DNA of 64,000 nucleotides from Oceanipulchritudo coccoides (GTDB lineage Bacteria; Verrucomicrobiota; Verrucomicrobiia; Opitutales; Oceanipulchritudinaceae): the NCBI RefSeq assembly GCF_010500615.1, contig NZ_JAAGNX010000001.1, positions 186,001 through 250,000 of the forward strand, read 5' to 3'. Positions 5,143 through 63,182 of this stretch are shown one piece after another. Both the position numbers and the translations under genes were made by a program. A model generated the notes under the pieces. That model made no database searches and was not told the DNA's origin. It saw nothing but the letters and a program-made list of their open reading frames with translations. Positions within the stretch are counted from its first letter, which is position 1, and each line of letters starts with the position of its first letter.

Positions 5143-5169
5143 TTACTATCCAACAAAAGGAGAAAGATC

Positions 5170-5340: not shown

Positions 5341-5361
5341 GGCGACAAAGGCGACACTCCC

Positions 5362-5793
5362 ATGAGTAGGCAAAAAAAGAGTAGGAAACGTCTCAGCAAA
5401 AAGAGAGTGCTGGAGGCAATCGAGGATTCGCATGGCGTGGTTTACGATGCCGCACGCCGCCTCGGTTGTGCTCGCAGCTCGCTACACCGATTCATCGCGA
5501 AAAATGGCCTCACAGCGCACGTTGACAGCGCACGAGCGGAGTTGCTGGACATTGCAGAGCATCACCTTGCGAAGGCTGTCAAAATCGGTTGCCCGTGGGC
5601 AGTGCGCTACGTTTTGGGCACGCTGGGAAAAGAGCGATTCGGAAGTGAGGCTGCACAAGTGGCAGTCACTTTCGAGGCTCTCCCTCGCATTCAGGTTGTC
5701 GAGTTCAATCCCAAAACAGGGGCACCCGTGAAGCCGATAAAAAAGGGCCACAAGCAGTTATGGCTCCCATCCGTTGAACAAAGACCACAATAA
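5362..5793 (+). CDS. Fis-like HTH protein, terminase-small-subunit-like
   Basis: 143 residues. The basic N-terminus (KKSRKRLSKKRVLEAI) is followed by a Fis-type helix-turn-helix, VVYDAARRLGCARSSLHRFI, at about residues 26-46. A helical segment with LAKAVKIGCPWAVRYVLGTLG follows, resembling the part of phage terminase small subunits that precedes oligomerisation. The C-terminus is proline- and lysine-rich. It sits 2 bases before the next gene, so the two are co-transcribed. A DNA-binding role is well supported. A packaging role is not, because no large terminase or structural genes are present. Confidence 0.65.
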   Translation: MSRQKKSRKRLSKKRVLEAIEDSHGVVYDAARRLGCARSSLHRFIAKNGLTAHVDSARAELLDIAEHHLAKAVKIGCPWAVRYVLGTLGKERFGSEAAQVAVTFEALPRIQVVEFNPKTGAPVKPIKKGHKQLWLPSVEQRPQ

Positions 5794-5795
5794 AC

Positions 5796-6608: not shown

Positions 6609-6634
6609 ATTCGAGGATAAGTTAAACTGAGCCG

Positions 6635-6671
6635 GAGGGGGTGGGGAGATCCTGCCCCCTCTTGTTTTTTA
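6635..6671 (+). terminator. Intrinsic terminator
   Basis: A 7-base stem GAGGGGG (6635-6641) pairs with CCCCCTC (6655-6661) and is followed by TTGTTTTTT. It lies 27 bases after the stop of the hypothetical gene ending at 6608 and separates that operon from the HUH-type gene. Confidence 0.8.
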
Positions 6672-6727
6672 TTAGAACCGTAAGTCAGAAATAGAGACTC
6701 CGTAAATTCCACACATAGACTTTCCGT

Positions 6728-8449
6728 ATGGCGACCCGGCAAAGGTATCAGGAACACCTAAGGCGATTGCTTGCCCTGTCAGAAAGAGGTCAGGATGAAG
6801 AGCTTTGCCCAGTATTCGCCACTTTCACGGCAAGGGGTGACACTTCACCCGCCCCGGACACGTTCAAGGCCATATTCGCGAAAATCACGCGCCGGGGTGG
6901 AACGTGGGGAAGGGTGTTCGAGGGTGGAGGGGATTCGCCGGAGAGGTTGCACGTTCATTCGGTTGTCACTGGCTTGACCTGCCGGGAGTTACTGGAGATC
7001 GGAAGGAAGACAGGCCGGACGGATGCACAGGAGATCACAAGAACCCCGGAGAAGGTGGTTTCCTACATGCTGAAGAACCTTTACGGTGAAGGACTGACCG
7101 GGAGGCGGGTTGCCTTCTCGCAAGGTGTTCCAAGGGCACAGGCAAGCGCACAGACGCAAGCGGAGCGGGCTCTTGTCTCACAGGCACTCGGAGGAATCGA
7201 CCTTGCAACCGCATTCGGTCCGAAGTGGAACCAGTTGACAGGGAGAGCACAGGCCCTTGCCCCGGTGGGCATGGAGAATACTCCACAGGGTCGGAAGAAG
7301 GCGATTCGCTCTTTCGTGTGCCTTGGCTGGGATGCTGGCCCGGTGTTCGAGCGGTGGGGAGATCCTGACTTCTGGCAATGGTGGCAGGCTGAAACGGAAG
7401 GACGTTTCCGGGTGGAGTTAGCCCGGCTCATGGGCATGAAAAGGGCCAGTGAGAAATCGGAAGATTCACCCGCTGGCCCTTGTGTCAGAATTAGCGACTC
7501 TGGCCACTATGAAATTTCCACTAAAACTTTGAAAGACCATGGTGGAAAAGCATTATCATTGGACACTGGACTCAAGGGAGTTAATACAACTTTGATGGCT
7601 TCAACATCAGCACAGTACTTAAAGTCTTCTTTTGCTGCCTTAAGGAATTGGATAGATTCCCTCGGAATACGCACCTCTAAAGGCAGAATTGCCGAATATT
7701 CACGCTTCTTGGAGGACTACACTACTTCTTTGGAAAACGATAGCCTAGATGCTTTTTTTTCTAGGTGGAAGCCAGGGATTTGCCTCTGCTTTCTTCAGGA
7801 AATTTACGATTTAATTTTTATTTATGAGGGTTTAGGCGATAGGAATGATTTAGGATTAATTTCACGATTAGAGAGGGTAATTTCAGGTAACAGCTTCTAT
7901 TCGGATGATGGAGCCAAAACTGAAGGAAGAGACTTCAGCTTCGAACTATTTGTTGCGTCCATATTCGCAAAGCAGGGAATCAATCTGACTCTGGATTCAG
8001 AGTCAGATGTAACTTTGCGCCACATTGGACTATCTATATTTGTGGAAGCAAAGAACTTGGGTAGTCTCCAAAGGATTGGGAGAAACACAAACAATGCCAA
8101 AAAGCAGATAATGAAGCGAATTAAACAGGAGCTTGTTCCGGCGAATTGTCGGGGTTTGATCGCTCTGAACTGTACAAAACTCTTAAACCCAGAATTTTTG
8201 TTTTATGAGATTAAAGATAAAAGCCCCGAAGCAGTTGCCAGTGATATGCTTTTCAAATTCGCATCAGAAAGAAGGAATAACTTAGTTAAGCATCTAGAAG
8301 GACGGGTGATTGCAATAATACTGGTTTTTGGAAGTGTTTTTCTGAATTTCAATTCACCATGTTACGGTCACCAAATCTCTGTGCTCTTGCAACCTGCTTT
8401 AAGCAGATCAAATCAATCTCTACTGAAAGGAATTTTCCCGAATCAGTGA
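6728..8449 (+). CDS. HUH endonuclease (Rep-like) fused to C-terminal PD-(D/E)XK-like domain
   Basis: 573 residues in two unlike halves. Residues 1-240 look like a rolling-circle replication or relaxase-type HUH nuclease: VFATFTARG (motif 1), HVH at 75-77 (metal-binding HUH) and VVSYMLKNLYG with Tyr113 as candidate nicking residue. Residues about 390-480 look like a restriction-endonuclease fold, with Glu406, Asp427, Glu440 and Lys442 in D-x12-E-x-K spacing (SDVTLR to VEAKN). Composition falls sharply from GC-rich to AT-rich at about 7,490, just after a 9-base inverted repeat, so the second half was probably joined to the end of an existing rep gene. An internal ATG at 7595 might give the C-terminal part separately. 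No strong RBS precedes 6728. Both activities are inferred from motifs. Confidence 0.7.
   Translation: MATRQRYQEHLRRLLALSERGQDEELCPVFATFTARGDTSPAPDTFKAIFAKITRRGGTWGRVFEGGGDSPERLHVHSVVTGLTCRELLEIGRKTGRTDAQEITRTPEKVVSYMLKNLYGEGLTGRRVAFSQGVPRAQASAQTQAERALVSQALGGIDLATAFGPKWNQLTGRAQALAPVGMENTPQGRKKAIRSFVCLGWDAGPVFERWGDPDFWQWWQAETEGRFRVELARLMGMKRASEKSEDSPAGPCVRISDSGHYEISTKTLKDHGGKALSLDTGLKGVNTTLMASTSAQYLKSSFAALRNWIDSLGIRTSKGRIAEYSRFLEDYTTSLENDSLDAFFSRWKPGICLCFLQEIYDLIFIYEGLGDRNDLGLISRLERVISGNSFYSDDGAKTEGRDFSFELFVASIFAKQGINLTLDSESDVTLRHIGLSIFVEAKNLGSLQRIGRNTNNAKKQIMKRIKQELVPANCRGLIALNCTKLLNPEFLFYEIKDKSPEAVASDMLFKFASERRNNLVKHLEGRVIAIILVFGSVFLNFNSPCYGHQISVLLQPALSRSNQSLLKGIFPNQ
7441..7481. repeat. 9-bp perfect inverted repeat at the Rep/nuclease junction
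   Basis: AAGGGCCAG (7441-7449) is exactly complementary to CTGGCCCTT (7473-7481). The hairpin lies inside the fused gene, about 10 bases before the abrupt fall in GC content. It resembles the stem of an intrinsic terminator that has lost its T-run, as expected if an ancestral rep gene once ended here. Confidence 0.55.
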
Positions 8450-8500
8450 ACAGGATTAATCTACCTTAGGTCGACAGAATTTGCAGATCGGAATCACCCA

Positions 8501-9106
8501 TTATTGACTTTTCGAAACGCTTGATGGTGGTTGAGGAGTGGATTGATTTTTGTTTAAATCGGGCAAACCAATTCTGGACATAAAGGAAGCGAATCTTTGG
8601 GATAAATCCTCTCGAAAAAGTTCAGGCATGCTCCACGATGATCCATGAGACTTGATTTTTTCCAGATGAGTTATTTTGGATGAAAAGTAGTGTTTGAAAT
8701 CAACTACTGAGTTAGGAATCTGAACTGTGTCAGGAAACTCTAAATAGTGATACCTAGGGTTTTGGTTGTTCTTAATGAAAGTGCCCTCGGTGTTTTTCCA
8801 TCTTTTGGGATTCATTCTATATTTTAGGTTAGAAAGATGATCACCAGTTCGAAAGTGTTCCACATTATATAGCGGAGCTACTAAAACAGAAATTAGATAT
8901 TTATCCTGGGATCCTTTGTCGGCTTGGCGAAATGTATAATCCTGCTGTAAATCACAATCTTGGGTGAGAATCACGCAAAAAGGAAAAACAATCTTTGAAA
9001 TTAATAACCTTCCTTGGTCTTCAACCACCTCCTCGATGAATTCGACGTTTTCGACGATATCCCCTTGGAGGACCCTTTGATTGGTGCTGGTAGTGACATT
9101 AATCAT
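8501..9106 (-). CDS. Unknown protein with TQDCDL motif
   Basis: 201 residues, last gene of a three-gene minus-strand operon whose members overlap by 8 and 23 bases. The N-terminal half is beta-rich and contains FCVILTQDCDLQQD at about residues 46-58, a motif I have seen in uncharacterised accessory proteins but cannot assign a function. The C-terminus is Ser/Pro/Gln-rich and probably disordered. AT-rich composition matches the other cargo. It converges on the HUH-fusion gene with about 50 bases between the stops and no obvious terminator. Confidence 0.6.
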   Translation of the reverse strand: MINVTTSTNQRVLQGDIVENVEFIEEVVEDQGRLLISKIVFPFCVILTQDCDLQQDYTFRQADKGSQDKYLISVLVAPLYNVEHFRTGDHLSNLKYRMNPKRWKNTEGTFIKNNQNPRYHYLEFPDTVQIPNSVVDFKHYFSSKITHLEKIKSHGSSWSMPELFREDLSQRFASFMSRIGLPDLNKNQSTPQPPSSVSKSQ

Positions 9107-9296
9107 TAGTGATCTTTGCCTTAATTATTATCCTAAATGGTTTGCCGTCGCCATATTCTGAGTAATCCTCTCCAGAACCACTCAGAGGAAAACTATCAGA
9201 CACCTCACTTTGAGTTTCGCGTTCTAATGGAGTCGAATCCAAATCCTCAAATAGTTTCAGAGGATCATCCTCTTCACTCGGATATTGCGGGTTCAT
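9099..9296 (-). CDS. Small acidic protein of unknown function (65 aa)
   Basis: 65 residues, strongly acidic, starting MNPQYPSEEDDPLKLFEDLD and ending with a short beta-like FRIIIKAKI segment. It overlaps the upstream TIGR04255-like gene by 23 bases and the downstream gene by 8 bases, which argues for translational coupling and against chance. No family recognised; it could be an adaptor or antitoxin-sized partner, but nothing in the sequence proves this. Confidence 0.5.
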   Translation of the reverse strand: MNPQYPSEEDDPLKLFEDLDSTPLERETQSEVSDSFPLSGSGEDYSEYGDGKPFRIIIKAKITND

Positions 9297-10050
9297 GACT
9301 TAAATCTTCTCTGAGGGGTTCTTCGATACTACTTTCAAATGCATCGTGAATCACTGTGTGAAATTTACTGAGGTAGTTCTCAATTTCATTGATGAAATAC
9401 GCCCCTGTTGAGAAGCAGTCATAGTCTAGAATAAATGATCTCCGCTTTATTTTCGCAGGAAAGTCTGGATTATGAATTCCATACCTAAATGTTAGTTGGA
9501 AATCCTCAAAATTATAAGTGGCTGTCTTGAATGCACGTGTTAAATTTGTTCCCGTCACCTTGCTTCCCTTGATAGTTATGTCGGGAATATCTAATAGCGT
9601 CGGATTAAAGAGGCCCGACCAATCCAGAACAGGACGACTATTGATCGTGAAATTGTTAATGTATCTGAGGCCAATTCTTTTAATCTTGTTTTCCTCGAAA
9701 ACCTCTGAAACCGCCTTTAGCGCGTTGTAGAATTCTGGTTCTAGCATTTCAAAACTCTCATGTTTCTTGTGGCTGACATAAAGGAATTCATCGGTTATAA
9801 CAAGGGAACTAGTTTTCTCCTTATTGAAAAAAGTCCATTTGATCCTTTCTTTCTTTCGCACGGTACCTTTTTCTGGACCTAGTTCAATCTCGTGCCCTTG
9901 TTCCATTTGGGGTTCGATTATCGGGAAGTACTCACGGGCTGCTTTGTAGACGACATCCGGAATACTATCCTGAAATTTTGGCACTTCAGATAAGAAATCT
10001 ACACGAGCGATAACCTCTGTAAGATAGTTCCTGGCATAACGGGAATTCAT
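9274..10050 (-). CDS. TIGR04255-like protein
   Basis: 258 residues from the ATG at 10050. The pattern RNYLTEVIARVDF near the N-terminus, a middle KWTFFNKEKTSSLVITDEFLYVS segment (not a known catalytic motif) and KRIGLRYINNFTI resembles the sporadically distributed TIGR04255 family, which occurs in accessory and defence-type loci and has no known biochemical activity. A TTG start at 10092 would add 14 residues, but the family-like sequence begins right after the ATG. It is the first gene of a tightly overlapping operon with the two genes downstream. Confidence 0.65.
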   Translation of the reverse strand: MNSRYARNYLTEVIARVDFLSEVPKFQDSIPDVVYKAAREYFPIIEPQMEQGHEIELGPEKGTVRKKERIKWTFFNKEKTSSLVITDEFLYVSHKKHESFEMLEPEFYNALKAVSEVFEENKIKRIGLRYINNFTINSRPVLDWSGLFNPTLLDIPDITIKGSKVTGTNLTRAFKTATYNFEDFQLTFRYGIHNPDFPAKIKRRSFILDYDCFSTGAYFINEIENYLSKFHTVIHDAFESSIEEPLREDLSHEPAISE

Positions 10051-10269
10051 AGAGACCCGACACTTGCATATTTTGTGCAACTGGAGAAGCAAAAGCTATG
10101 AACAAGTTTTTCACAGGCTTACTCTCAGTTAATTTCCTTTCTGGTGTTTTCATCCTCAGTTAGAAATCTTGTTGAGAGAAGGGGGATCGGAATCCATTAA
10201 CCCGGTAAAATCCCGTACAGCTGCAAATTTCTTTCTATGGCCTGGAATTGGTAACCCGTTGATTACCAA

Positions 10270-10345
10270 TGGAGCCAGCTGTCAGACTCGAACTGACGAC
10301 CTGCTGATTACAAATCAGCTGCTCTACCAACTGAGCTAAGCTGGC
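10270..10345 (-). tRNA. tRNA-Thr (anticodon TGT)
   Basis: The minus strand folds into a full cloverleaf: acceptor stem GCCAGCT/AGCTGGC, D-arm GCTCAGTTGGTAGAGC, anticodon loop with TGT between stems CTGAT/ATCAG, T-arm around TTCGAGT, U discriminator and encoded CCA. The 3' end faces the accessory region. Confidence 0.97.
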
Positions 10346-10348
10346 CTA

Positions 10349-10424
<76 letters not shown>

Positions 10425-23470: not shown

Positions 23471-23536
23471 TTGGCGGGTTTTCTCAACTAAGTGGCTGAA
23501 TTTTTCTAATTAAAATTGTGAGATTTGTGGCATTCT
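23471..23536 (+). promoter_or_regulatory. Direct-repeat operator and promoter, copy 1 (symporter-HTCS)
   Basis: First half-site TTGGC (23471) with CAA 14 bases on, second half-site GTGGC (23492) with CTA 14 bases on; the two are 21 bases apart. A -10-like CATTCT lies at 23531. This is the weakest of six copies (two mismatches). It stands 53 bases before the symporter start, counted from the -10. Confidence 0.7.
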
Positions 23537-25374: not shown

Positions 25375-28300
25375 ATGTTTCCTAGTGCCTTCGATCCAGA
25401 TTGGCTGAAAGTATTCCGTTCCAGCTCCCGGATTCTCAAGCTCCTTACATGGCTGCTACTTCTCGGGAGCCATGCCTGGGCAGTCGTCGATTCGGGACCC
25501 AAACTGGAGTATCTTGCGTACGATAAATGGCGCTGGCGTGAGTTGAAACAATTGAGCGATATCCAAATACGGAGTATCGATGAGTCGATCGATGGAATTC
25601 TCTGGATCGGAGGAGGAGATAGTCTGTATGCATATGATGGATACAAGACCCGGCGTGTCCCGCTGGATGTGGAGGATGAAGAAATCCGTTCTATCGCGGT
25701 GCTGGATGAGGGGCATATCCACTATCTGACCAAATCTCATTGGGGCAGAATAAAAAACGGCAGCATGGAAATCCTGATGTCGCTTGAAGCTCCCGATGTG
25801 GCAACAAGCGAACTTGCGACCGATGATAACGGAAATGTTTTTCTTGGAACCTCCGGTGGCCTATTACGGTTCAGTCACAATAGTATTGAGCCGGTGGAAG
25901 TCTTGTTTGAGCGGATTGATAACGTCACTTTTTCATCCGCTGGAGAGATTTGGCTCTCCGAATCTAATTCAGGCCGGCTGGCTGTCTACAGGACGTCCAC
26001 GGACGGATCGGCCAATGTTGACCTCGTAAAGCTCATTAGCCCTTCGATTCCGATTGCGGAATATCCATTCAAGTTGTTCCCGGATGCCAAAGGCAAGGTA
26101 TGGATTGTCTCGGAGGATCCGGAGGTGCCCCCAGTCTATTTTACCCGGGACTACTCCGAAGTCATTCTTGATGATTTGAGGGGTTTGGGTGGATCCAACG
26201 TATGTTTTGGCATAACCGAGAGTCATGACGGGTCCATCTGGATATCCGCGCGGCGCTTTCTTCATCGTTACGTTAACGATAACTGGGAAGTGCTCGATAG
26301 CGAATTTCTTGATATCCCGACTTCGGCCCCGCTCCTTTATACCCTCAACGATGGATCCCTCTTGATTAGCGGTCCCCGTGAAAAAGTCGTGATCCTCAAC
26401 TTGGATTCGGGCCGCTTTTCCGGTTTCAAGGGGCTGCACTTCGAGGGGGAGGACCGGTTTGGTGGGCAATGGTTTATTTCGGAGGATGGCAGGGTTGGGC
26501 GAAATTCCGAGGATGGGGCACTCTGGACCTGGTTTTCCGCTGATGACGGGATTCCGGAATCGCCCAGCTTGATCTTCTTTTCCAGTGATGGGACAATCTG
26601 GGTTGCCGGAAGTCATGAAATGGCAGCTTGCGTCTCCCGGTTTGACGGGGAGACCTGGACCCGGGACAGCTTCAATGAAATGGGTTACCGGATCGGGCAC
26701 TTGAGCGCTTTTGAAACCAGCGGCGGCGATGTCCTCTTCGGCAATGGATCCGAACACACACCTCCCAGCAAGTGGGAGGGTGGTCTGGTTCGCTACTCGC
26801 CTGCCCAGGGTGGATACACCTATTCACGCCAACTCCCTCCCGAGGTGCCTTACCGTGTCTCCTGCATTGGGGAGGGCCCGGACGGGGCCCTGTTCATTTC
26901 CGGTCCTGGATTAAACAAAATCACAGATTCTGCGGTTTCGATTGTCCCGGTGCCCGGCTTGGAGCGCCCCAGTTGGTGGATTGACCATATGGCTGTCGGA
27001 ACGGATAACACCCTTTGGTTATGTGCCTGGGGCAAGGGCGTTTACAGATACCTTGCCGGTGAATGGCAGGTATATACCGAGTCAGACGGTTTATTGAGCA
27101 ACCGCGCCATCTATTCCCTGCCAAGCCGCTTCTGGGACGGTGTCTGGGTTACCACGCAAAAGGGAATTGTTCGTTTTGATGGCACCGCCTGGACCTCCGT
27201 TTTTCCCTTCCCTGACCAGATGACCCGTGAATCCAGCACCCTGCAGGAGACAGACGATGGCGAACTTTGGATTAATATCGCCTCGCGTGCATGGTTCTTC
27301 AGGTCTACCCCTGATCCGGTAAAGTCCGGATCCTACTATTCCATCCGGTATGTTCCGGAAAGAAATCCACCCGTTGTGTCACTTGTAGAGACACCGCGAG
27401 CCAGGGTCATTGACGGCAACCAGTATTTCCAATGGGAAGGCTTTGATTTCTGGTCGGAAACACCAGCTGATGCCCTCGAGTATTCCTACCGTGTCAACGG
27501 GGCGGACTGGAGCCCGTTTGCCACAGGAAACCAGATCAACCTGTCCGACTTGAAACCGGGCGACTATACCTTTGATGTGCGTGCCCGCGACAGGGACTGG
27601 AATGTCTCAGCCAGTCCAGCCAGTTACACCTTTGCGGTCGTTTCACCCCTTTGGAAACGGCCGTGGTTTATCGCCACAATGGTCTTCACGGTTGGACTGA
27701 TTGCCTTCCTGATCACCCTGATCATTCGCAACCGGGTTCGTCACATCCTTGAGATCGAGGAGTTGAAAATCCAGTTTTTTACCTACCTTTCGCATGAGTT
27801 GCGGACGCCTCTCGCGGTTGTCCTCGGCCCGATCGAGAGTGCCATGAAACAGGTCGAAAACACGGCCGTCCTGCAAAACCTGGCCTTGGCCAGGAAGAAT
27901 GCCAACCGGGTCCTTTCGCTGGTCGACCAGTTGCTGGATTTCAGGAAATTCGAGTATTCCAAGAAGACCTTCAATCCGGAGGCCTCAGACCTGTGCGTTT
28001 TCCTGCGAGATTCAGTTGAATCGATTCGCTCCCTGAGCGATGATAAAAACCAGCGCATTGAGTATCAGTCCTCCCTCAGTCCAGGGTATTTCCTGTTCGA
28101 TGGCGATATGCTGCAGAAAATCTGCAACAACCTGATCAGCAATGCCATCAAGTACTCTCCAGAAGGAAGTGCCGTGACTGTGGAGGCTGAACTCCTCAGT
28201 CCAGCAGATCCGGAGGAGTCACCGGTGCTGATGCTCTCAGTGGCAGATGAAGGGCCCGGGATTACCCCGGATGACCAGAAGTTGATTTTTGCGCCATTTT

Positions 28301-29292
28301 ATCGAATCAAGCGCGATAGCAGCCGGGGGAAGGGCGCTGGATTGGGCCTCGCCCTCGTAAAGGACCTGGTGAACGCTTGGGGAGGCACCATCGCCATTGA
28401 GAGTCCCTGCAAGGGTGAAGAAGGCACGCGGTTTCAAGTCAGTCTGCCCGTTCAAAAAGAGGATCGGCAGGAGGATTTGGCGATCCAGGTAGAGGAGGCC
28501 ACGGCAAATGATGATCAAGGGAGAGGACAGGATGTGGTCCTTCTGGTTGATGACGATGCTGACTTCCGCAGCTTCGTAAAATCCGAGTTGCAGACACAGT
28601 TTCAGGTAATTTGCGCCAAGGACGGAGCGGAAGGGGTGAAGCTGGCCGGGAAGCACATGCCCGGAGTCATTGTCTCGGACTTTCACATGCCTGGCATGAG
28701 TGGAGAGGGCCTGTGCCGGGCGATCAAGGGCGAACTCGAGACCTGCCACATCCCGATCATCCTCCTGACATCAGACCTGTCGCCTGAAACGGAACTCGTC
28801 GCGGTTAAAAGCTTTGCCGACGAATTCCTGCACAAGCCGGTTAGTATCGAGTTGCTGAGTGCCCGTCTAGATGCGGTTCTGGAGACTAGGCGTCGTTTGC
28901 GGGAACGTTTTACAAAACAGTTGAAGATTGAGCCTGCAGAAATTGCCGTGACCTCGACGGACGAAAAGTTGCTGGGCAAAGCGATTGAAGTGGTTGAAAA
29001 GAACATTCAGGACGACACTTTCAACGTGGACGAGTTTTCCCATCAGATGGCCATGAGCTCCCGTACGCTCTACCGTAAGCTCCGGGCAATAACAGGGATT
29101 TCCCCCTCCCAGTTTATTCGGTCAATCCGGTTGAAGCGGGCGGCCCAATTCTTCCAGGGAGGCATCACCAATGTCTCCGATGTCATGGTGCGAGTCGGCA
29201 TCCTGGATGCCTCCCATTTTAGTCGGACCTTCAAAAAGGAATTTGGCAAGTCGCCGCGCCAGTATGTTGCTGATTCTGAAGGGGAGGATTGA
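25375..29292 (+). CDS. Hybrid two-component system regulator (HTCS) with AraC output
   Basis: 1305 residues combining sensor and regulator in one chain. The N-terminal signal/anchor (residues about 18-36) is followed by a two-propeller periplasmic sensor (about 40-660), a Y_Y_Y domain (about 680-755), a membrane helix (about 763-785), HisKA with His807 in SHELRTP, a HATPase with NLISNAIKYSPEG, DEGPGI and GKGAGLGLALV, a receiver domain with VDDDADF and phospho-acceptor Asp1102 (VSDFHMPGMSG), and an AraC-type double HTH (about 1218-1300, MSSRTLYRKL to SHFSRTFKKEFGKSPRQYV). HTCS proteins bind an oligosaccharide outside and switch on polysaccharide loci. Here the six 21-bp direct-repeat sites around it are its probable targets, including one before its own transcript. 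Confidence 0.95.
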   Translation: MFPSAFDPDWLKVFRSSSRILKLLTWLLLLGSHAWAVVDSGPKLEYLAYDKWRWRELKQLSDIQIRSIDESIDGILWIGGGDSLYAYDGYKTRRVPLDVEDEEIRSIAVLDEGHIHYLTKSHWGRIKNGSMEILMSLEAPDVATSELATDDNGNVFLGTSGGLLRFSHNSIEPVEVLFERIDNVTFSSAGEIWLSESNSGRLAVYRTSTDGSANVDLVKLISPSIPIAEYPFKLFPDAKGKVWIVSEDPEVPPVYFTRDYSEVILDDLRGLGGSNVCFGITESHDGSIWISARRFLHRYVNDNWEVLDSEFLDIPTSAPLLYTLNDGSLLISGPREKVVILNLDSGRFSGFKGLHFEGEDRFGGQWFISEDGRVGRNSEDGALWTWFSADDGIPESPSLIFFSSDGTIWVAGSHEMAACVSRFDGETWTRDSFNEMGYRIGHLSAFETSGGDVLFGNGSEHTPPSKWEGGLVRYSPAQGGYTYSRQLPPEVPYRVSCIGEGPDGALFISGPGLNKITDSAVSIVPVPGLERPSWWIDHMAVGTDNTLWLCAWGKGVYRYLAGEWQVYTESDGLLSNRAIYSLPSRFWDGVWVTTQKGIVRFDGTAWTSVFPFPDQMTRESSTLQETDDGELWINIASRAWFFRSTPDPVKSGSYYSIRYVPERNPPVVSLVETPRARVIDGNQYFQWEGFDFWSETPADALEYSYRVNGADWSPFATGNQINLSDLKPGDYTFDVRARDRDWNVSASPASYTFAVVSPLWKRPWFIATMVFTVGLIAFLITLIIRNRVRHILEIEELKIQFFTYLSHELRTPLAVVLGPIESAMKQVENTAVLQNLALARKNANRVLSLVDQLLDFRKFEYSKKTFNPEASDLCVFLRDSVESIRSLSDDKNQRIEYQSSLSPGYFLFDGDMLQKICNNLISNAIKYSPEGSAVTVEAELLSPADPEESPVLMLSVADEGPGITPDDQKLIFAPFYRIKRDSSRGKGAGLGLALVKDLVNAWGGTIAIESPCKGEEGTRFQVSLPVQKEDRQEDLAIQVEEATANDDQGRGQDVVLLVDDDADFRSFVKSELQTQFQVICAKDGAEGVKLAGKHMPGVIVSDFHMPGMSGEGLCRAIKGELETCHIPIILLTSDLSPETELVAVKSFADEFLHKPVSIELLSARLDAVLETRRRLRERFTKQLKIEPAEIAVTSTDEKLLGKAIEVVEKNIQDDTFNVDEFSHQMAMSSRTLYRKLRAITGISPSQFIRSIRLKRAAQFFQGGITNVSDVMVRVGILDASHFSRTFKKEFGKSPRQYVADSEGED

Positions 29293-29314: not shown

Positions 29315-29379
29315 TTGGCGAGCGGAGCCAACTAATTGTCATCCCCGCGCAAACCAATGGCTGGCTTCAACTGTATACT
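29315..29379 (+). promoter_or_regulatory. Direct-repeat operator and promoter, copy 2 (large operon)
   Basis: TTGGC (29315) with CAA 14 bases on, then TTGTC (29336) with CAA 14 bases on, 21 bases apart; -10-like TATACT at 29374. It stands before the 13-gene operon that starts with the esterase gene. The predicted transcript start near 29386 leaves almost no leader before ATG 29390. Confidence 0.8.
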
Positions 29380-55590: not shown

Positions 55591-55655
55591 TTGGCGGCTT
55601 CGAGCAACTAATTGGCTTCCCCGGACAACCCATCTTTCCTGAAATATGCCATACT
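55591..55655 (+). promoter_or_regulatory. Direct-repeat operator and promoter, copy 3 (EF-hand gene)
   Basis: TTGGC (55591) with CAA 14 bases on, then TTGGC (55612) with CAA 14 bases on, 21 bases apart; -10-like CATACT at 55650. A perfect copy. Distance from the -10 to the EF-hand start is about 60 bases. Confidence 0.85.
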
Positions 55656-56100: not shown

Positions 56101-57561
56101 ATGAAAGCGACTGCCATGAAGTTTTTTCTCATTTCGGCATTTCTCGGTCTGGTTTCAAGCTTTGGGGCGACCGGCCAGCCCAACATAGTCCTCATCCTGG
56201 TCGACGATATGGGGTACTCGGACCTCGGTTGTTACGGCAGTGAAATTGAGACGCCCAACCTGGACCGGCTTGCCGACAATGGGATTCGCTTCACCAATTT
56301 TACCAATGATGCCAAATGCGGACCCAGCCGCACCTCCCTGATGTCCGGGCGCTTCCACTCCCAAGTCAAGGGAGCAGGTTTTGGATCGGTCATCACGATT
56401 CCCGAGATCCTTGGGCAAGGAGGCTACCAAAGCTTCATGCTTGGAAAGTGGCATATTTTCGACACGCCGCTGGAGCGCGGCTTTGACCGGATGTACGGGT
56501 TCATGGAAGGGTGGTGCAACTCCCTCACCGGTGAGTGGAAGGGTGAGCAGGTGCAGAAGCTCGATGGAAAGCCACATCGCTTGCCGGAGGGACTCACCAC
56601 GACGCAGGCCTACACGGAATTTGCGGAACGCTTCATCCGGGAACGGGATCCGGAGAAACCGTTTTTCCTGTATTTGGCCTACAATGCGCCACATTATCCG
56701 CTTCATGCCCCCGAGGCCGATGTGATGAAATACCGCGGCCGCTACCAGGATGGCTGGGGTGCCCTGAGGGAATCGCGGCTTGAGAAGATGAAGGCCCTCG
56801 GTATCGTACCGCAAGGTCAGCAGCTTTCCCCGACCGATGTCGCTTCATGGGATTCCCTGACCGATGCGGAGCGCGACCGTCAGGATCTCGTGATGGCGAC
56901 GTATGCGGCGATGATCGACGGCCTGGACTGCGGGGTGGGGCAGCTTGTGGAAACGCTTCAGGCTGAAGGTCTTTTTGAAGACACGTTGATTCTTTTTCTG
57001 AGCGACAACGGGGCCTGCCCGTTTGAGCGCACCGAGCTGGAAACATTGGAAAACAACTACATGCCATGGGACGCACGCTCCTTTTATACATATTCCGAGC
57101 CTTGGGCCAATGCCTGCAACACTCCCTGGAGCAAATACAAGCAGAACCAGCACGAAGGGGGCATTTCAACACCTTTGATCGCCCACTGGCCAAATGGAAT
57201 CGCCAACCCGGGTCGCCTTGACCGGGGTCGTGGTCATATCGTGGATTTTCACGCCACCTTCCGCCACCTCCTCGGGCTTGATTGCCCGGATCAATATAGG
57301 GGACATCTGCTCGGCCAGCCGCCCGGACTGAGCCTGGCAGCCGCCTTTGCCGGCCAACCCCGTCCCCTGCACGAGGAGCTGTTCTATTCCTTTAACAAGT
57401 TTTCGGCCCTCACCCAGGGCCGATGGAAAGTCGTCGATCAGCAATACCTTTTCAACTTGGAAGACGACCGCATCGAGGCGAATGACCTGCGCGCGGAGCG
57501 TCCTGAGCTGTTCCAGTCACTGAAGAATCGCTGGGACGAATTGGACCAAAGCTTCCGCTAA
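56101..57561 (+). CDS. Secreted type I sulfatase
   Basis: 486 residues from ATG 56101. Signal peptide (KFFLISAFLGLVSSFGATG), metal site VDDMGYSDLGCYG, active site KCGPSRTSLMSG with Cys73, GKWHIFD and LSDNGACP. Its motifs are closest to those of the sulfatase at 51248 (both DMGYSDLGC and HWPNGI/HWPDGI). It lies directly after the terminator of the EF-hand gene; no own operator is seen, so expression may depend on readthrough from operator copy 3. Confidence 0.9.
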   Translation: MKATAMKFFLISAFLGLVSSFGATGQPNIVLILVDDMGYSDLGCYGSEIETPNLDRLADNGIRFTNFTNDAKCGPSRTSLMSGRFHSQVKGAGFGSVITIPEILGQGGYQSFMLGKWHIFDTPLERGFDRMYGFMEGWCNSLTGEWKGEQVQKLDGKPHRLPEGLTTTQAYTEFAERFIRERDPEKPFFLYLAYNAPHYPLHAPEADVMKYRGRYQDGWGALRESRLEKMKALGIVPQGQQLSPTDVASWDSLTDAERDRQDLVMATYAAMIDGLDCGVGQLVETLQAEGLFEDTLILFLSDNGACPFERTELETLENNYMPWDARSFYTYSEPWANACNTPWSKYKQNQHEGGISTPLIAHWPNGIANPGRLDRGRGHIVDFHATFRHLLGLDCPDQYRGHLLGQPPGLSLAAAFAGQPRPLHEELFYSFNKFSALTQGRWKVVDQQYLFNLEDDRIEANDLRAERPELFQSLKNRWDELDQSFR

Positions 57562-57589
57562 GCGCGATAAATAGCAGGAAAAACGACTG

Positions 57590-57654
57590 TTGGCGGATTT
57601 GTGCAAGCAATTGGCGTTTAAAATCAACCGCCTTTCCACAGATTCCAGTAAACT
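57590..57654 (+). promoter_or_regulatory. Direct-repeat operator and promoter, copy 4 (PEP-CTERM gene)
   Basis: TTGGC (57590) with CAA 14 bases on, then TTGGC (57611) with CAA 14 bases on; -10-like TAAACT at 57649. A perfect copy. Confidence 0.85.
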
Positions 57655-57740
57655 GCCGTCGAATCTGGGAGGATCCTATCCCTCTTTTCTCAGTCCAGGG
57701 AATTTCCCCTAAAACCCGCTTCACACACATACTAATCCAC

Positions 57741-58616
57741 ATGAAAATTAAACGACTCACCTCTACCCTCGGCCTTGCAGGCTACTTGCTGGGTTTTTGC
57801 CTGCTTGCCACCCAGTCATCTGGCGCAATCTACACATTGGCTGCGTCTGGCGATATTCTCAGCGCCAGCGACGGAACTACTACTTTAGCGGATGCCATTA
57901 CAGCCAACGCTGGCACAATGCCGTCAGGTACTACAGTGGTAATCCCCACCGGCTTCGCTGCGACGATGCAGGGATTCAACGGCGTTGATTCGACTGACAC
58001 CATCATCAATGTGGACGGCTCCTCCACACTTACGGCTATCGGTAACAATAACGCTGACCGGACTCAAACAGTTACAATTAATATAAAAGATTCGGCGCAG
58101 TATTTATTGGATTCGGATCACAAAGTGCGGGCTGATCTCGTTTTAAATTATGATAGTAGCGCGGCATCCAGCTCTGCTGGCAAATTGACTTTCCAGTCCA
58201 GTACTACGCAATCCACCACCATCAATTTGAACAGTGGTTCCTTAATCTTTGGTGAAATTAGTTTGGCCAAGGCAGGCGAGTTCAACTTGAATGGGGGTGA
58301 CTTGTCATTTGCTGCAATTAACACCCTGACCGCCTCCGCTCCTGGTTTTATCGATTTCAATTCAGCAGCTGGCTCTGTGCTTACATTCACCGGTGCAAGC
58401 GCACTGACTGATCTGGACGTCAATATTGGGTTTGGCATGTTCCAGATTGATGGAGTCTCCCAAACAAGCATAGCTTCTTGGAGTCGGGTCCTGGATGGCA
58501 CAACACTGACGCTCACGCCGACGCCGGTCCCGGAGCCGTCGACCTATGCCCTGTTGCTGGGCCTTGCGGCATTTGGCTTTCTCACTTTCCACCGCCGCTC
58601 TCATAGGGGTTGTTAA
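57741..58616 (+). CDS. Secreted beta-rich protein with PEP-CTERM anchor
   Basis: 291 residues: signal peptide (KRLTSTLGLAGYLLGFCLLATQ region), a Ser/Thr/Asn-rich repetitive body with VLNYDSSA, INLNSGSL, FNLNGGDL and FQIDGVS, and a C-terminal PEP-CTERM signal (VPEPSTYALLLGLAAFGFL then RRSHRG). The body looks like a short beta-helix or autotransporter-like passenger. It is the first of three tandem relatives, each with its own copy of the operator but with a different C-terminus. A surface-attached, carbohydrate-binding or scaffold role is inferred; no catalytic motif is seen. Confidence 0.85.
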   Translation: MKIKRLTSTLGLAGYLLGFCLLATQSSGAIYTLAASGDILSASDGTTTLADAITANAGTMPSGTTVVIPTGFAATMQGFNGVDSTDTIINVDGSSTLTAIGNNNADRTQTVTINIKDSAQYLLDSDHKVRADLVLNYDSSAASSSAGKLTFQSSTTQSTTINLNSGSLIFGEISLAKAGEFNLNGGDLSFAAINTLTASAPGFIDFNSAAGSVLTFTGASALTDLDVNIGFGMFQIDGVSQTSIASWSRVLDGTTLTLTPTPVPEPSTYALLLGLAAFGFLTFHRRSHRGC

Positions 58617-58644
58617 CGTTATATACTAAGGGTGCGGAAAATTA

Positions 58645-58682
58645 AAGAGGTCCTTCCTTAGGGTGGAAGGGCCTCTTGTTTT
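58645..58682 (+). terminator. Intrinsic terminator after PEP-CTERM gene
   Basis: A 13-base stem (58645-58657 with 58665-58677, one G-T pair) with a seven-base loop, running into TTGTTTT. Stops transcription before operator copy 5. Confidence 0.9.
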
Positions 58683-58710
58683 ATACAGACAGGAAGGATT
58701 CAAAGGCAGA

Positions 58711-58776
58711 TTGGCGATTCCGGACAAGCAATTGGCCTGAAAAAACAACCCGGTATACGCGTTTATCCCCTATAGT
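58711..58776 (+). promoter_or_regulatory. Direct-repeat operator and promoter, copy 5
   Basis: TTGGC (58711) with CAA 14 bases on, then TTGGC (58732) with CAA 14 bases on; -10-like TATAGT at 58771. A perfect copy. The predicted transcript start (about 58783) supports the ATG at 58811 rather than the one at 58787. Confidence 0.85.
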
Positions 58777-58810
58777 GGCTCTTCACATGAACATCCTAAA
58801 GCTAACCCAT

Positions 58811-59809
58811 ATGAAAAATACAATACTCCATAAAACCTCCATCATTGCAAGTTTTGGTCTTGGAATGTGCCTCCTGGCTTCCAGCACCTCCGCGCAGTAC
58901 ACCTATATCGGGAACGATCCCGACATTGTCCTCGACGGCAATGGTTTTACTGGCGCGGCCGGTGAGACCTTAGATATCGGGACCACTGGTGATGTGGGTG
59001 GCCGATTTGATACCACGATGACTGATGTTGTTGGTGGCGGAACTCCTTATCCCATTGTCAGCGTTTATGGGAGTTCGACTTTGACGGCTAGTGGCGTCGG
59101 CTATGGAGGTGATCCCGAGGACATGGCGATGGAGAAATTGACTGTCAATATTTCCGATACGGCTGAGTTCCTCGTCGGGGTAGAACTCGAGTTTCGTAAC
59201 CAGTTCGTCCTAAATTATGATAGCAGTGCCGACTCTGTCAGCAGCGGGAGTCTTCGCTTGCTCGACCAAGCCGCGGCCGAAAAGTTCACATCTTTCAATC
59301 TCAACAGCGGCTCATTGACCGTAGGCCCACTCAGGTTTGGTGAAGTCAGCGACAAGGGTCAAATCAACCTGAATGGCGGTGACTTCACATTTGCAACGCT
59401 GAACGATGGTGATACCCCTGACCTGCCGGTGAACGCGCAGATCAACTTCGCCGATCCAGTGGGGGCTCCTTCGGTACTCACGATTACGGAAGCTACCGGG
59501 GTCGATTACCTCGATGAGTATATTGCGAACGGGTTATTTGCCATCCAAGGCGTTCCCGTGACTTCGCTTAGCGCTTATAACCTCAGTTGGACTCAGACCG
59601 GGACGATTACTGTGGTAGACCCGATAACTTTGGAAGAGACAATTGTACCAATTGGAGACCTGACCATGACGGCCAATGCCCTGCAATTTGTTACGGCGTC
59701 GCTTGAAATGAGCACGGACCTGCAGAACTGGAACCCGGTAGATCCTGGAGATTTTCAGATCACCACGACTCCGCGCTTTTTCCGCGCCGTTGTCGTACCG
59801 GTTCCCTGA
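58811..59809 (+). CDS. Secreted beta-rich protein, paralogue with 'FFR' C-terminus
   Basis: 332 residues from ATG 58811. Signal peptide (SIIASFGLGMCLLASSTSA), then a body related to the preceding protein: VLNYDSSA, FNLNSGSL, INLNGGDF, LDEYIANGLFAIQGV. In place of a PEP-CTERM anchor it ends with a short module (LEMSTDLQNWNP to TPRFFRAVVV) of the type that also ends the dehydrogenase-like protein at 18803. It may therefore be released or held differently at the surface. It has its own operator and terminator. No enzyme motif. Confidence 0.8.
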   Translation: MKNTILHKTSIIASFGLGMCLLASSTSAQYTYIGNDPDIVLDGNGFTGAAGETLDIGTTGDVGGRFDTTMTDVVGGGTPYPIVSVYGSSTLTASGVGYGGDPEDMAMEKLTVNISDTAEFLVGVELEFRNQFVLNYDSSADSVSSGSLRLLDQAAAEKFTSFNLNSGSLTVGPLRFGEVSDKGQINLNGGDFTFATLNDGDTPDLPVNAQINFADPVGAPSVLTITEATGVDYLDEYIANGLFAIQGVPVTSLSAYNLSWTQTGTITVVDPITLEETIVPIGDLTMTANALQFVTASLEMSTDLQNWNPVDPGDFQITTTPRFFRAVVVPVP

Positions 59810-59837
59810 TCTATAAAGTCTTTAGCTGATTTTGCAC

Positions 59838-59873
59838 GGCCGGTTCTGGAGTTCATCCGGGACCGGCCTTTTT
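59838..59873 (+). terminator. Intrinsic terminator
   Basis: GGCCGGT (59838-59844) pairs with ACCGGCC (59862-59868), followed by TTTTTC. It lies 29 bases after the stop of the gene ending at 59809. Confidence 0.85.
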
Positions 59874-59899
59874 CTTCTGCAGAGCGCTATTTCCTCACA

Positions 59900-59964
59900 T
59901 TGGCGGGGAAAAGCAATTAATTGACCAACAGGAGCAATCGGATTCCGAGACAATGTGTTTTAAT
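59900..59964 (+). promoter_or_regulatory. Direct-repeat operator and promoter, copy 6
   Basis: TTGGC (59900) with CAA 14 bases on, then TTGAC (59921) with CAA 14 bases on; -10-like TTTAAT at 59959. It stands before the 60079 gene, which runs into the two TIM-barrel genes with gaps of 2 and 9 bases. Confidence 0.8.
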
Positions 59965-60078
59965 AGAGCTGTTATGACACAACCTGCCTCATTAATACCC
60001 CTGCTGTGACCCTGACCGATCAGCGCCGATATTGTGAGGTTTTACACGCACCAAAAACTACCAAAATAAGATCGAATA

Positions 60079-61056
60079 ATGAAATTATACCCTACAAAAA
60101 CAAACCTGCTGCTGACCCTTACTTTAGGCGCATTCCTCACGGGGACTGCGCTGGCTGACATTGCCTTTACGAACGGAGGCGGAACAGGAGACTGGAGAGA
60201 TCCCGCCAATTGGGACGGAGTTAATTTTGTGGGCACCAGTCCCGCTCCCGAGGAACCGTTTGTGGTGGGCGACTCGGCCGATGCCGGCGGGGTTTTTGAC
60301 ACCATAGCCGTCACGGGCTCCAACCTGAGTGGCGCGGGCGCGATCATCAATGTCCTGGGAACTTCCAGTGCCTCATTTGAGGGAAACAAACAGGGCATCA
60401 GTATGACTATAAACTTTGAGGACAATTCCCGCTATCTTGTCGTTGATCTCAGCAAAGTCGGGTATGACTTTGTCCTGAATTACAACAGCGCGGCAATTTC
60501 GGATTCCTTCGAGGGCGAATTGCGGATCTGGCGGGCAAGCGGCCTGGTTAATGAAGTCTTCCGCATAGGGGCTGTCATTAACGTGAATTCCGGAGGAATT
60601 AACCTGGGAGCACTTGTTTATAACGAGGCAGGCATCGTCAACTTGGATGGTGGAAATCTCACGGTCGGGACACTGGATAATCCGGTTGGTGGTATCATCA
60701 ACTTCAGTTCCAACGGCGGGTCTACATTCTCTCTTAACTCAGCCGTAACCGTTAACGATCTGGATACGCTGATTGCCAGTGGATCTTTCACCATCGACGG
60801 TGTAGCCGAAGCGGAATCGCCGCACTCATTCTCCAAGGTGCTTGATGGTACGACTCTGGAAATTTCGGTTATCCCCGGGCAGGTTTCGACCTGGTTCGGA
60901 TATGATATCGTCGACGGAGCGGTGGATACAGGCGGTTGGATCGGCCCGGTCGACGTGGTTAATGACCCATGGGTATTTTCGTGGAACCTCGACGGCTGGA
61001 TGTACGCGCCGGCGCAACCCTCAGATAACGGCGCCTGGTTCTTTATCGCCCGTTAA
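60079..61056 (+). CDS. Secreted beta-rich protein, paralogue with W-rich C-terminal module
   Basis: 325 residues. Signal peptide (TNLLLTLTLGAFLTGTALA), a body related to the two preceding proteins (VLNYNSAA, INVNSGGI, VNLDGGNL, LIASGSFTIDGV) and a distinct last 58 residues beginning STWFGYDIVDG and ending WMYAPAQPSDNGAWFFIAR. The same C-terminal module ends the next protein. It replaces the PEP-CTERM and FFR tails of its relatives, so it is probably an attachment or recognition tail. First gene of the transcript carrying the two TIM-barrel enzymes. Confidence 0.8.
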   Translation: MKLYPTKTNLLLTLTLGAFLTGTALADIAFTNGGGTGDWRDPANWDGVNFVGTSPAPEEPFVVGDSADAGGVFDTIAVTGSNLSGAGAIINVLGTSSASFEGNKQGISMTINFEDNSRYLVVDLSKVGYDFVLNYNSAAISDSFEGELRIWRASGLVNEVFRIGAVINVNSGGINLGALVYNEAGIVNLDGGNLTVGTLDNPVGGIINFSSNGGSTFSLNSAVTVNDLDTLIASGSFTIDGVAEAESPHSFSKVLDGTTLEISVIPGQVSTWFGYDIVDGAVDTGGWIGPVDVVNDPWVFSWNLDGWMYAPAQPSDNGAWFFIAR

Positions 61057-61058
61057 AT

Positions 61059-63182
61059 ATGATTCCCCCCCCTTTCCCTCCTCGAATCCTTCTTGCCGCC
61101 TCCCTTCTTCTTGGAGGGGGGCTGGCTTTGGATGCAAAACTCGGTCTGGACCGCGAAGCTTACGGCGTCTGGGACCGGTCGGGTTTCCAGCCTGTTGAGC
61201 AATATCCCTTCACTCGCGGTCAGGAATGGTCGACGGGGTGGGAGCACGTGCACCCGGCCCGCGGGGTTTATGACTGGTCGGAACTTGATGAGCTACTGGA
61301 GTTTGCACACCAGCAAAACCAGAAAGTGTTTATCAAGGTGCAACCCGTCAGTGGACTAGGTGAGCCCCCGGCGTGGATTTACGGTGCAGGTGTGCCAAAG
61401 TTGTCCGACCGGAAATACACCTATGGCTATTATCTTGATCCGGAATTTAAGCTCTATTTTAGCGAGATGGTGCAAGCCATGGGCGACCATGTCCGCAACA
61501 ATGTTCCAGACCACCTTTTGGAATTGGTCGCTTTCGTGAGGGTTGATACGGGCGCAACCGGAGACGAGGAACCCTACGAGTACCAAAACCGAATCCCTTC
61601 GGCGTACAAGATTTCAGATGCGGATTGGCAGGATTACCGACTTTGGGTCTTCGAGCTTTACCGTCAGGCCTTTCAGGAGGGTCCCGGGGCCAAGATTCCC
61701 CTTCTCTTCCAAGCCATTGATCCGACCAAGGATACGGATGAATGGAACTGGGTAAGCCAGAACGTGACGGCCGGCTTTGGAGCCAAATTTGGTGGGCTGG
61801 TTCGGGGCCATCACATGACAAATTCCAATACCGTGACCATCGACTTTAAGGACAAGGCGGTTGATTCAGACTTCGGGCTCTTTTCGCGGAATGAAATGGA
61901 CCAGACCTGGTCCAAGACCTTCTTCCAGCTTAATATCCGGCTGAACATGTACTGGACAGCGGTTGAGCAGCTGCAACCCGGCATGAGTGTCTGGGACGTC
62001 ACAAAATCCTGCCTTCAGAATACCTATATCGACGGATACGCTTTCGCCTTTGAATTTTTCAATACCTGGGCGGCAGAATTGGATCCGCCAACGGCGCGTG
62101 GAGGATTTTCGATTCTCCACGAAGGATTGGATTTCGATGATAAGGAAAAATTCCCCGAATCGATATATGGGGAGAAGTCTCCTGAAAACCTTGACCGTTA
62201 TTTGGCCATTTGTGAAGCCTATGCCGACCAGGGTGCACAGATGGATGACGTCGATTCGGCTCCGCGCGGTCAAGTCTATCAGCGCGCCAACATGACGGGC
62301 TTCAATGACTGCGCAAGAAGTCTCTGGGCGGGTAACTATGAACGCTTCATCAGGCAGATTGATCCAGACAACACCAGCAAGGGACTCTTTCGAGTTAATG
62401 GTCCCCTGACCCCGTCTTCCCATCCCTACGATCGCTTTGCCCGGAGTTTCGACAGCACGACGGGTAAGAATACGATGTACTTTGATGTTCATGACAACTT
62501 GCTGCCATCGCGCAGCCAACGGGTGCAGCTTTCCGTGATCTATCTCGATAAGGGAACCGGGCAGTTTGAACTGGAATACGATGCCACGGACAACAGCCAA
62601 AAAAGTGCGTTTGTTGTCACCAAAACCAATTCCAATACCTGGAAGACGGAAACCGTGGTGGTCGACGATTGGGTCATGGCAAACAATGGTCCGAATGGTG
62701 CCGACCTGATGCTGCTGAATATCGATTCGGAAGACGACATCTTCCATATGGTGGAGTTGGTCAAGCTAGCCGAAGTTGTTGTTGTTACAGAGGGGCAGGG
62801 GACCGTCACCGGGCGCACCGATGCCACCATTTACGATCCTGTGATTGGCACCTTTGCCGAGGGTCAACGGCTCGAATTAACTGTGACACCTGCCCCCGGA
62901 TGGGAATTTTCCGGGTGGAGTGGTGATTTGGACGGAACGAATCCGCGTCCTATTCTTTATCCGACTGAAGATACGCAGGTAACCGCCCATTTCACCCGGG
63001 TGGGCGAGACCTCCACCTGGTTCGGATTTAAAATACTAAATGACTATGTGGATACAGGAGCCTGGTTGGGTTGGGTGCATGTCGCAAACGATCCATGGGT
63101 CTATTCTGAGAACCTGGGAAGCTGGATGTATGCCCCCGAACAATCCGGTGCGTTTGGCGCCTGGTTTCACTTGAGTTACTAA
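61059..63182 (+). CDS. Multi-domain secreted TIM-barrel glycosidase (GH42-like)
   Basis: 707 residues. Signal peptide (RILLAASLLLGGGLALDA), a clan GH-A-like barrel (WSTGWEHVHPARGVYDWSELDE, VRVDTGATGDEEP with a candidate acid/base Glu), a beta-sandwich ending GPNGADLMLLNIDSEDD at about 570, an InlB-type repeat domain (about 571-645: EGQRLELTVTPAPGWEFSGW) and a W-rich C-terminal module (STWFGFKILND to WMYAPEQ). It is a paralogue of the enzymes at 45084 and 63192. The start ATG lies two bases after the upstream stop. Substrate is unknown, but a galactan-type sugar is plausible from the barrel type. Confidence 0.8.
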   Translation: MIPPPFPPRILLAASLLLGGGLALDAKLGLDREAYGVWDRSGFQPVEQYPFTRGQEWSTGWEHVHPARGVYDWSELDELLEFAHQQNQKVFIKVQPVSGLGEPPAWIYGAGVPKLSDRKYTYGYYLDPEFKLYFSEMVQAMGDHVRNNVPDHLLELVAFVRVDTGATGDEEPYEYQNRIPSAYKISDADWQDYRLWVFELYRQAFQEGPGAKIPLLFQAIDPTKDTDEWNWVSQNVTAGFGAKFGGLVRGHHMTNSNTVTIDFKDKAVDSDFGLFSRNEMDQTWSKTFFQLNIRLNMYWTAVEQLQPGMSVWDVTKSCLQNTYIDGYAFAFEFFNTWAAELDPPTARGGFSILHEGLDFDDKEKFPESIYGEKSPENLDRYLAICEAYADQGAQMDDVDSAPRGQVYQRANMTGFNDCARSLWAGNYERFIRQIDPDNTSKGLFRVNGPLTPSSHPYDRFARSFDSTTGKNTMYFDVHDNLLPSRSQRVQLSVIYLDKGTGQFELEYDATDNSQKSAFVVTKTNSNTWKTETVVVDDWVMANNGPNGADLMLLNIDSEDDIFHMVELVKLAEVVVVTEGQGTVTGRTDATIYDPVIGTFAEGQRLELTVTPAPGWEFSGWSGDLDGTNPRPILYPTEDTQVTAHFTRVGETSTWFGFKILNDYVDTGAWLGWVHVANDPWVYSENLGSWMYAPEQSGAFGAWFHLSY

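Follow-up and report, generated by a model that had tools for sequence, protein, structure and literature searches.

Results

Three paralogues with unrelated C-termini

A 64,000-nucleotide (nt) stretch of Oceanipulchritudo coccoides DNA (NZ_JAAGNX010000001.1, positions 186,001-250,000; hereafter the window) contains three tandem genes at 57741-61056, termed genes 1, 2 and 3, whose products share one body and end in three different tails (Table 1). Homology of the bodies was evident between genes 2 and 1 (E 3.5e-27, 266 amino acids (aa) at 40%), genes 3 and 1 (E 2.7e-20, 185 aa at 40%) and genes 3 and 2 (E 3.6e-15, 251 columns at 33%). A preliminary description of this DNA had listed four body motifs in a constant order, and all of them were found, in that order, in the three proteins: VLNYDSS, VLNYDSS and VLNYNSA in genes 1, 2 and 3, respectively, then NSGS, NSGS and NSGG, then NGGD, NGGD and DGGN, and finally GMFQIDGV, GLFAIQGV and GSFTIDGV. 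It had also described the C-termini as wholly different, and indeed gene 1 ends in a PEP-CTERM tail, gene 2 in a short module named FFR, and gene 3 in a tryptophan (W)-rich module, the W tail. Genes 1 to 3 are true paralogues with one body and unrelated C-termini. Their N-terminal signal peptides were judged by eye. Gene 2 plausibly starts at 58811. Its open frame reaches back to 58676, and a second in-frame ATG is found 8 codons upstream of this start.

The gene 1 protein matched PF07589 at 26.8 bits (cut-off 20.7) and TIGR02595 at 21.1 bits (cut-off 16), and has the PEP-CTERM motif, a helix and a basic end. Three matches to PF09721 above cut-off represent exosortases in this genome. Genes 2 and 3 gave no Pfam or NCBIfam match at E <= 1. 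The earlier observation that two of the tails occur on unrelated proteins of the window holds for PEP-CTERM (the 21356 protein) and for the W tail (the 61059 protein); FFR-like sequence at the C-terminus of the 18803 protein is weak (E 0.22).

A common direct-repeat site upstream of the three genes

Each gene had been credited with an operator of its own. A site is present before each of them (57590, 58711 and 59900), but all three are of one type, copies of the same site. A 40-bp stretch is common to the upstream regions of genes 1 and 2, and none of 200 single-base shuffles reached its score; the region upstream of gene 3 was not significantly similar to either of these in that test, with 36 and 33 of 200 shuffles reaching the score. 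The core common to all, gene 3 included, is the direct repeat TTGGC-N16-TTGRC, the two halves of which start 21 bp apart. Exact matches to this core number 7 in the window, against a mean of 0.42 (standard deviation 0.64) in shuffles, none of 100 of which reached 7, and 5 in 349 kb of other, partly overlapping loci of the same genome. Four of the seven lie before genes (at the three positions above and at 55591), and the remaining three (2636, 16909 and 55100) fall within long open reading frames (ORFs) and score no higher than 11.2 with a longer matrix. This matrix was built from six window sites, the four before genes together with 23471 and 29315. The six depart from the 27-base pattern by 0 mismatches in three cases, 1 in one and 2 in two (23471 and 29315). 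Their matrix scores range from 26.5 to 33.7; the site that follows them in the window has 16.3. Outside the window the matrix found one further site (C1:256449, score 24.8), with the rest of the 349 kb at or below 16.3; it lies just past the window, upstream of a gene that is sulfatase-like to judge by its N-terminus.

The candidate for recognition of these putative operators is a hybrid two-component system (HTCS) regulator encoded at 25375, in which the Y_Y_Y domain scored 23.4 bits, below the cut-off of 26.6. Motifs of Bacteroides HTCS are predicted direct repeats spaced 21 bp apart on average, according to the accessible part of the source (PMC3878776). Since all three genes bear the same site, in agreement with this published layout, they are probably co-regulated and not independently dosed, and we infer that the 25375 regulator would drive them together. 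The independent dosage proposed in the preliminary description is rejected, because the three operators are one and the same site, repeated before each gene and before other genes of the cluster; set C, described below, is arranged likewise with another site. Separate terminators had been proposed as well. They are clear for genes 1 and 2, but gene 3 lacks one, the prediction list containing no terminator between it and the next gene.

Several other candidates were discarded or gave nothing. The first operator candidate, AAGCAATT(GGC), was later replaced by the direct repeat. Exact copies of AAGCAATTGGC occur 8 times in the genome, of which 2 precede genes 1 and 2, four others fall within long open frames, and the last two are on the minus strand. 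No palindromic operator was common to the genes of the window set, sigma-70 promoters showed no excess (10 vs. 8.3), and no RNA element reached Rfam gathering scores in 57400-61200.

Exchange of tails elsewhere in the genome

The bodies of 37 W-tail, 20 PEP-CTERM, 3 FFR-type and 2 other proteins were compared all against all. At E <= 0.01, the related pairs comprised 8 PEP/W, 2 PEP/FFR and 2 W/FFR combinations along with 17 W/W and 4 PEP/PEP pairs. The PEP-CTERM proteins were listed by pattern, and 19 are also among the 20 PF07589 matches of the genome; in 8/20 the body is related to that of a W- or FFR-tailed protein at E <= 0.01, and in 5/20 at E <= 1e-15. Alternation of tails on one body recurs in three further sets (B, C and E) and one weak set (D). 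In set B, the bodies at C1:935116 (PEP-CTERM) and 936549 (FFR, C-terminal as in gene 2) share 78% identity over 348 aa, and a W-tailed protein at 926979 is 39% identical to the former and 35% to the latter; the cluster includes a sulfatase and a LacI regulator. Set C, on contig C2, combines proteins at 1007758 (W), 1008853 (longer W-type), 1023940 (FFR-type by eye) and 1026381 (PEP-CTERM) with a TonB-dependent receptor. The palindrome TTTACGTAAA precedes each tail variant of set C, the receptor gene and one further gene, and is also found at the 5' end of the LacI-family ORF of the set, ahead of the DNA-binding domain. It occurs 7 times within these 29 kb (L123/L124, G000:C2:1003000-1032000) and 0 times in 619 kb of other loci, which partly overlap and include loci of relatives. 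Set E pairs C1:828519 (W) with 834066 (PEP-CTERM) at E 3e-19, followed by a TonB-dependent receptor. In set D, PEP-CTERM and FFR-containing bodies are 88% identical, and homology to a W-tailed protein reaches only E 5e-5. Three further PEP/W pairs (L033/L023, L038/L061 and L047/L059) are unclustered. Tandem duplication would by itself be expected to produce clusters; what is unusual here is that the tail changes.

In two of the sets, at L124:6381-10936 and L126:14067-18405, the PEP-CTERM gene is immediately followed by that of a TonB-dependent receptor, and looks as if it served the receptor.

It is conceivable that these combinations arose by neutral domain shuffling, whereby duplicates took any available C-terminal segment with no division of location. 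PEP-CTERM sets evolve rapidly, with frequent duplication and loss, as far as the accessible part of the source describes them (PMC1569441), and the two body families searched would fit such a history, being strong in their own genome only: the window body matched in 3/273 genomes of the order, the two others weakly, with no relative confirmed in a search of genome contigs, and the set C bodies matched at all in 3/17 genomes of the family. However, bodies unrelated to one another carry the same tails in separate clusters, and the family has retained the W tail. Moreover, every member of the window set and of set C has its own copy of the cluster operator, and the stretch of DNA that matches between the two genes of the set B pair (866 nt at 84%) does not reach into the tails. 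We consider neutral shuffling unlikely.

The W tail

The W tail spans about 53 residues (consensus WxGYxxxxxGxVDTGxWLGxxxVxxxPWVYSxxLxxWxYxPExxxxxxGxWxY). At the loci retrieved from this genome 40 proteins were matched and 37 taken as the core, among which the domain ends no more than 4 residues from the C-terminus in 35 and 6 and 8 residues from it in the others. At further loci, 30 of 31 ORFs with the domain (3 of the 31 from this genome) end within 8 residues of it. One unit per protein is usual (32/37 of the core), two being found in 5/37 core proteins and tandem copies in 5/31 of the further ORFs. The top 18-residue hydropathy was 1.16 for W tails (n = 37) and at least 1.39 for PEP-CTERM ends (n = 20). 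At E <= 1e-5, the tail was detected in 17/273 genomes of the order, namely 16/17 of the family of O. coccoides and 1/256 outside it. An exosortase match is present in 16/17 W-bearing genomes and in 201/273 overall; the single genome that has W tails without such a match (G095) is a hint that tail and exosortase are independent.

The proteins that carry the tail are varied. They include GH16, GH10, GH88/GH76-like, FGE-sulfatase-like, S9/esterase-like and beta-helix/CBM96 proteins, and for 10 of the 20 scanned Pfam gave nothing at E <= 0.001, while 1 had a below-cut-off match only. A multihaem MtrC/MtrF-like cytochrome (L108, G000:C3:665705-669854, minus-strand ORF 2001-3710) also has the tail, a hint of surface attachment. 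Because one tail occurs on such different cargo, a common surface partner is suggested, and because the hosts are so varied this partner is likelier to belong to the cell than to be one substrate.

No curated Pfam or NCBIfam model covers the domain, and a named-organism search gave no match. Among PDB sequences at E <= 10, the W profile matched solely 7pl5 (E 2.1e-4) and 7pl2 (E 0.13). Both entries are labelled putative endo-beta-N-acetylglucosaminidase, and we take them to be the choline-binding protein LytB. As controls, the reversed profile had its best match at E 0.53 to an unrelated protein, and two column-permuted profiles matched nothing. A longer W-rich C-terminal domain, which looks like a remote relative of the W tail, was seen at L050:4090-5733, L120:1143-2222 and in the L123 gene 1008853-1011831; the L050 version is of the YPWVYHxxHxWLY type.

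Substrate binding offers a different account, in which the W tail is a new module resembling a carbohydrate-binding module (CBM), the paralogues amount to one binding body that either has or lacks an additional glycan-binding module, and only PEP-CTERM sorts. A small aromatic-rich domain, sometimes in tandem, placed after flexible linkers such as DPDPDP in several relatives and borne by several glycan-active enzymes, would suit this role. Its hosts nonetheless span several substrate classes and non-enzymes including the MtrC-like cytochrome, its position is almost always the extreme C-terminus, and two W-tailed GH16 proteins already possess a CBM6. On balance we find this account rather doubtful, if deserving of serious attention.

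The occurrence of the tail at the C-termini of many unrelated secreted proteins of one genome would also be expected of the cleaved signal of a type-IX-like secretion route across the outer membrane. Yet SprA_N was found in 0/273 genomes of the order (the control genomes were silent too), and among 28 W tails no type IX tail model of Pfam or NCBIfam was matched at E <= 1, the NCBIfam matches at that threshold amounting to one chance match. The tandem and internal copies likewise fit poorly with such a signal, and we judge this route very unlikely.

Surroundings of the locus

The ATG of the 61059 gene lies two bases past the stop of gene 3, which ends at 61056. This gene (61059-63182) and the one from 63192 onward are tandem paralogues, the first of which showed weak GH42-like similarity. 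The surroundings encode sulfatases, melibiases, GH63/trehalase-like and GH42-like proteins, esterase-like proteins and a symporter, and the cluster in the window is a sulfated-polysaccharide utilisation cluster. At the other end of the window, 34-10424 has a lower G+C content, ends near two tRNA genes (10270-10424) and has the look of an integrated element; its ORFs are presumably integrase-like and DNA-methylase-like.

Table 1. Position in the window of the three paralogous genes, their tails and the associated features (HTH, helix-turn-helix).
Feature	Position	Strand	Remarks
Gene 1	57741..58616	+	291 aa; signal-peptide-like start, common beta-rich body, PEP-CTERM tail
Gene 2	58811..59809	+	332 aa; common body, FFR tail
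Gene 3	60079..61056	+	325 aa; common body, W tail
PEP-CTERM tail, gene 1	58524..58598	+	Best PF07589 match of the genome (G000:C1:244524-244598), 31.5 bits
FFR tail, gene 2	59654..59794	+	G000:C1:245654-245794; training row of the FFR profile
W tail, gene 3	60892..61053	+	G000:C1:246892-247053; E 2.9e-20
Putative operator, gene 1	57590..57616	+	TTGGC-N16-TTGGC direct repeat, 21-bp phase
Putative operator, gene 2	58711..58737	+	Direct-repeat copy
Putative operator, gene 3	59900..59926	+	Direct-repeat copy
Putative operator copy	55591..55617	+	Upstream of small EF-hand protein gene (55716) and sulfatase gene
Putative operator copy	23471..23497	+	2 mismatches; upstream of sodium:solute symporter gene (23589)
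Putative operator copy	29315..29341	+	2 mismatches; at start of 29336 hydrolase ORF
HTCS-type regulator	25375..29292	+	Reg_prop, Y_Y_Y, HisKA, HATPase_c, receiver, AraC HTH; candidate for the putative operators
Intrinsic terminator after gene 1	58645..58677	+	
Intrinsic terminator after gene 2	59838..59868	+	
707-aa protein	61059..63182	+	Weak below-cut-off GH42-like similarity, InlB-type repeat, W tail

Discussion

The reading that we favour, and hold to be moderately probable, is that genes 1 to 3 encode co-regulated, secreted, beta-rich binding or scaffold paralogues that are placed differently by exchangeable tails, under one HTCS regulator. The homology of the bodies, the identities of the tails, the common site and the recurrence of the alternation are observed; we infer the identity of the regulator, the role of the W tail as an anchor, the locations and the ligand. 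A single HTCS regulator, acting at the same direct-repeat site before each gene, would make all three proteins together. The gene 1 product is predicted to be processed by one of the three exosortases of the genome. The gene 3 product may be held non-covalently by its W tail at a glycan or another component of the cell's own surface, and the enzyme-like 61059 protein, which has the same tail, could be held there with it. The gene 2 product would probably be released or differently placed, with FFR as an ordinary extracellular domain. With all three made at once by one regulator, the outcome would be one predicted binding activity at several locations. A secreted binding or scaffold set with alternative anchoring was already the idea of the preliminary description. 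Its placement component gains weight, because the alternation recurs, with strongly similar bodies, in three further clusters and the W tail is found on very different secreted proteins, but the notion of three anchors is weakened by FFR.

A number of observations count against the reading we favour. Six strong matches to the FFR profile were found in its own genome, and they are the profile's own six rows, the next match having E 5.5e-4; FFR as a genome-wide tail is thus unsupported. The profile did not report the FFR-type end of set C, in set D the FFR-like part is internal to the protein, and tandem FFR units lie near the N-terminus of two proteins that are FGE-like by eye. Because it occurs in tandem near the N-terminus elsewhere, FFR would be a general extracellular domain, and a role as an anchor is improbable. 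As regards the W tail, the domain stops 16, 43 and 69 residues short of the C-terminus in the three matches excluded from the core, and one ORF of a relative (L088, genome G147) is a clear exception, with two units 251 residues before its end. None of the 28 W tails matched a cell-wall-binding model of Pfam or NCBIfam at E <= 1, the similarity to 7pl5 is weak (independent E of the best single stretch 0.061), and the structure model of the tail alone had a predicted local distance difference test (pLDDT) score of 55. The gene 3 model was also poor (mean pLDDT 53) and returned no Foldseek match at E <= 0.001. Finally, sets B, D and E yielded no common operator, and the confinement of strong matches of the two body families to their own genome, given above, belongs here too.

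A pattern search also located FFR-like sequence close to the N-terminus of both the 51200 and the 53144 protein.

The models of gene 3 and of the W tail are too weak for superposition of the bodies or a fold search with the tail. That of gene 3 is beta-rich, with pLDDT block means of 50 to 87 over residues 91-240 and lower values elsewhere, and its list of non-significant Foldseek matches holds many proteins that we take to be beta-helices, which is a lead only. The body of the paralogues is most likely a beta-solenoid.

A broader and more tentative proposal, which we regard as possible rather than probable, is that the family has a second route of surface attachment, consisting of the W tail and a dedicated partner, and that its clusters make one body with several tails under one regulator. 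If this scheme were true, the same activity would be available at the outer membrane or matrix, at the enzyme-bearing surface and in the medium. To our knowledge, the function of the PEP-CTERM tail is still mostly unknown, and this genome holds near-isogenic natural tail swaps (78% identical bodies, PEP-CTERM vs. none) that make the role of a tail directly testable. The W tail, for its part, marks many secreted enzymes, beta-rich proteins and a surface-type cytochrome, and could aid annotation of the polysaccharide degraders of the family. Among titles and abstract starts of the open-licence literature, we found neither a description of the W tail nor side-by-side tail variants in one genome under one operator.

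Choline-binding modules serve surface attachment. A weak resemblance of the W tail to those of 7pl5 is suggested by its pattern of W and tyrosine (Y) hairpins and by the profile match, but the tail differs from them in being mostly a single 53-residue unit, with no repeat array and no Pfam match.

The tail of gene 1 and the exosortases of the genome resemble PEP-CTERM/exosortase (EpsH) sorting, as presented in the accessible part of its description (PMC1569441). In that text, PEP-CTERM genes are mostly single units with long upstream regions and fast-evolving bodies, and the published shared upstream site, from Proteobacteria, is of the sigma-54/PrsR type. The site described here is instead an AraC/HTCS-like direct repeat common to other genes of the cluster, and adjacent paralogues bear other tails in place of PEP-CTERM. 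A hybrid regulator with an AraC HTH, direct repeats of about 21 bp and a polysaccharide cluster recall the HTCS regulons of Bacteroides. Unlike those regulons, as far as the accessible part of the source covers them (PMC3878776), the sites here precede tail-variant paralogues, and the host belongs to the Verrucomicrobiota, while HTCS are described there as unique to Bacteroidetes. No SusC or SusD model was matched among the subset of window proteins scanned.

Alternative anchoring had been put forward in the preliminary description as a new idea for such loci. This does not extend to the principle, since homologues with different sorting tails (GlyGly-CTERM, PEP-CTERM and LPXTG) already appear in the accessible part of an earlier study (PMC3237569). 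The likeness to those homologues lies in one body family with several C-terminal tags. Whereas the examples in that part of the study come from different species, several variants occur here together in one genome, two of the sets stand under one operator each, and one of the tails is an aromatic domain without a model.

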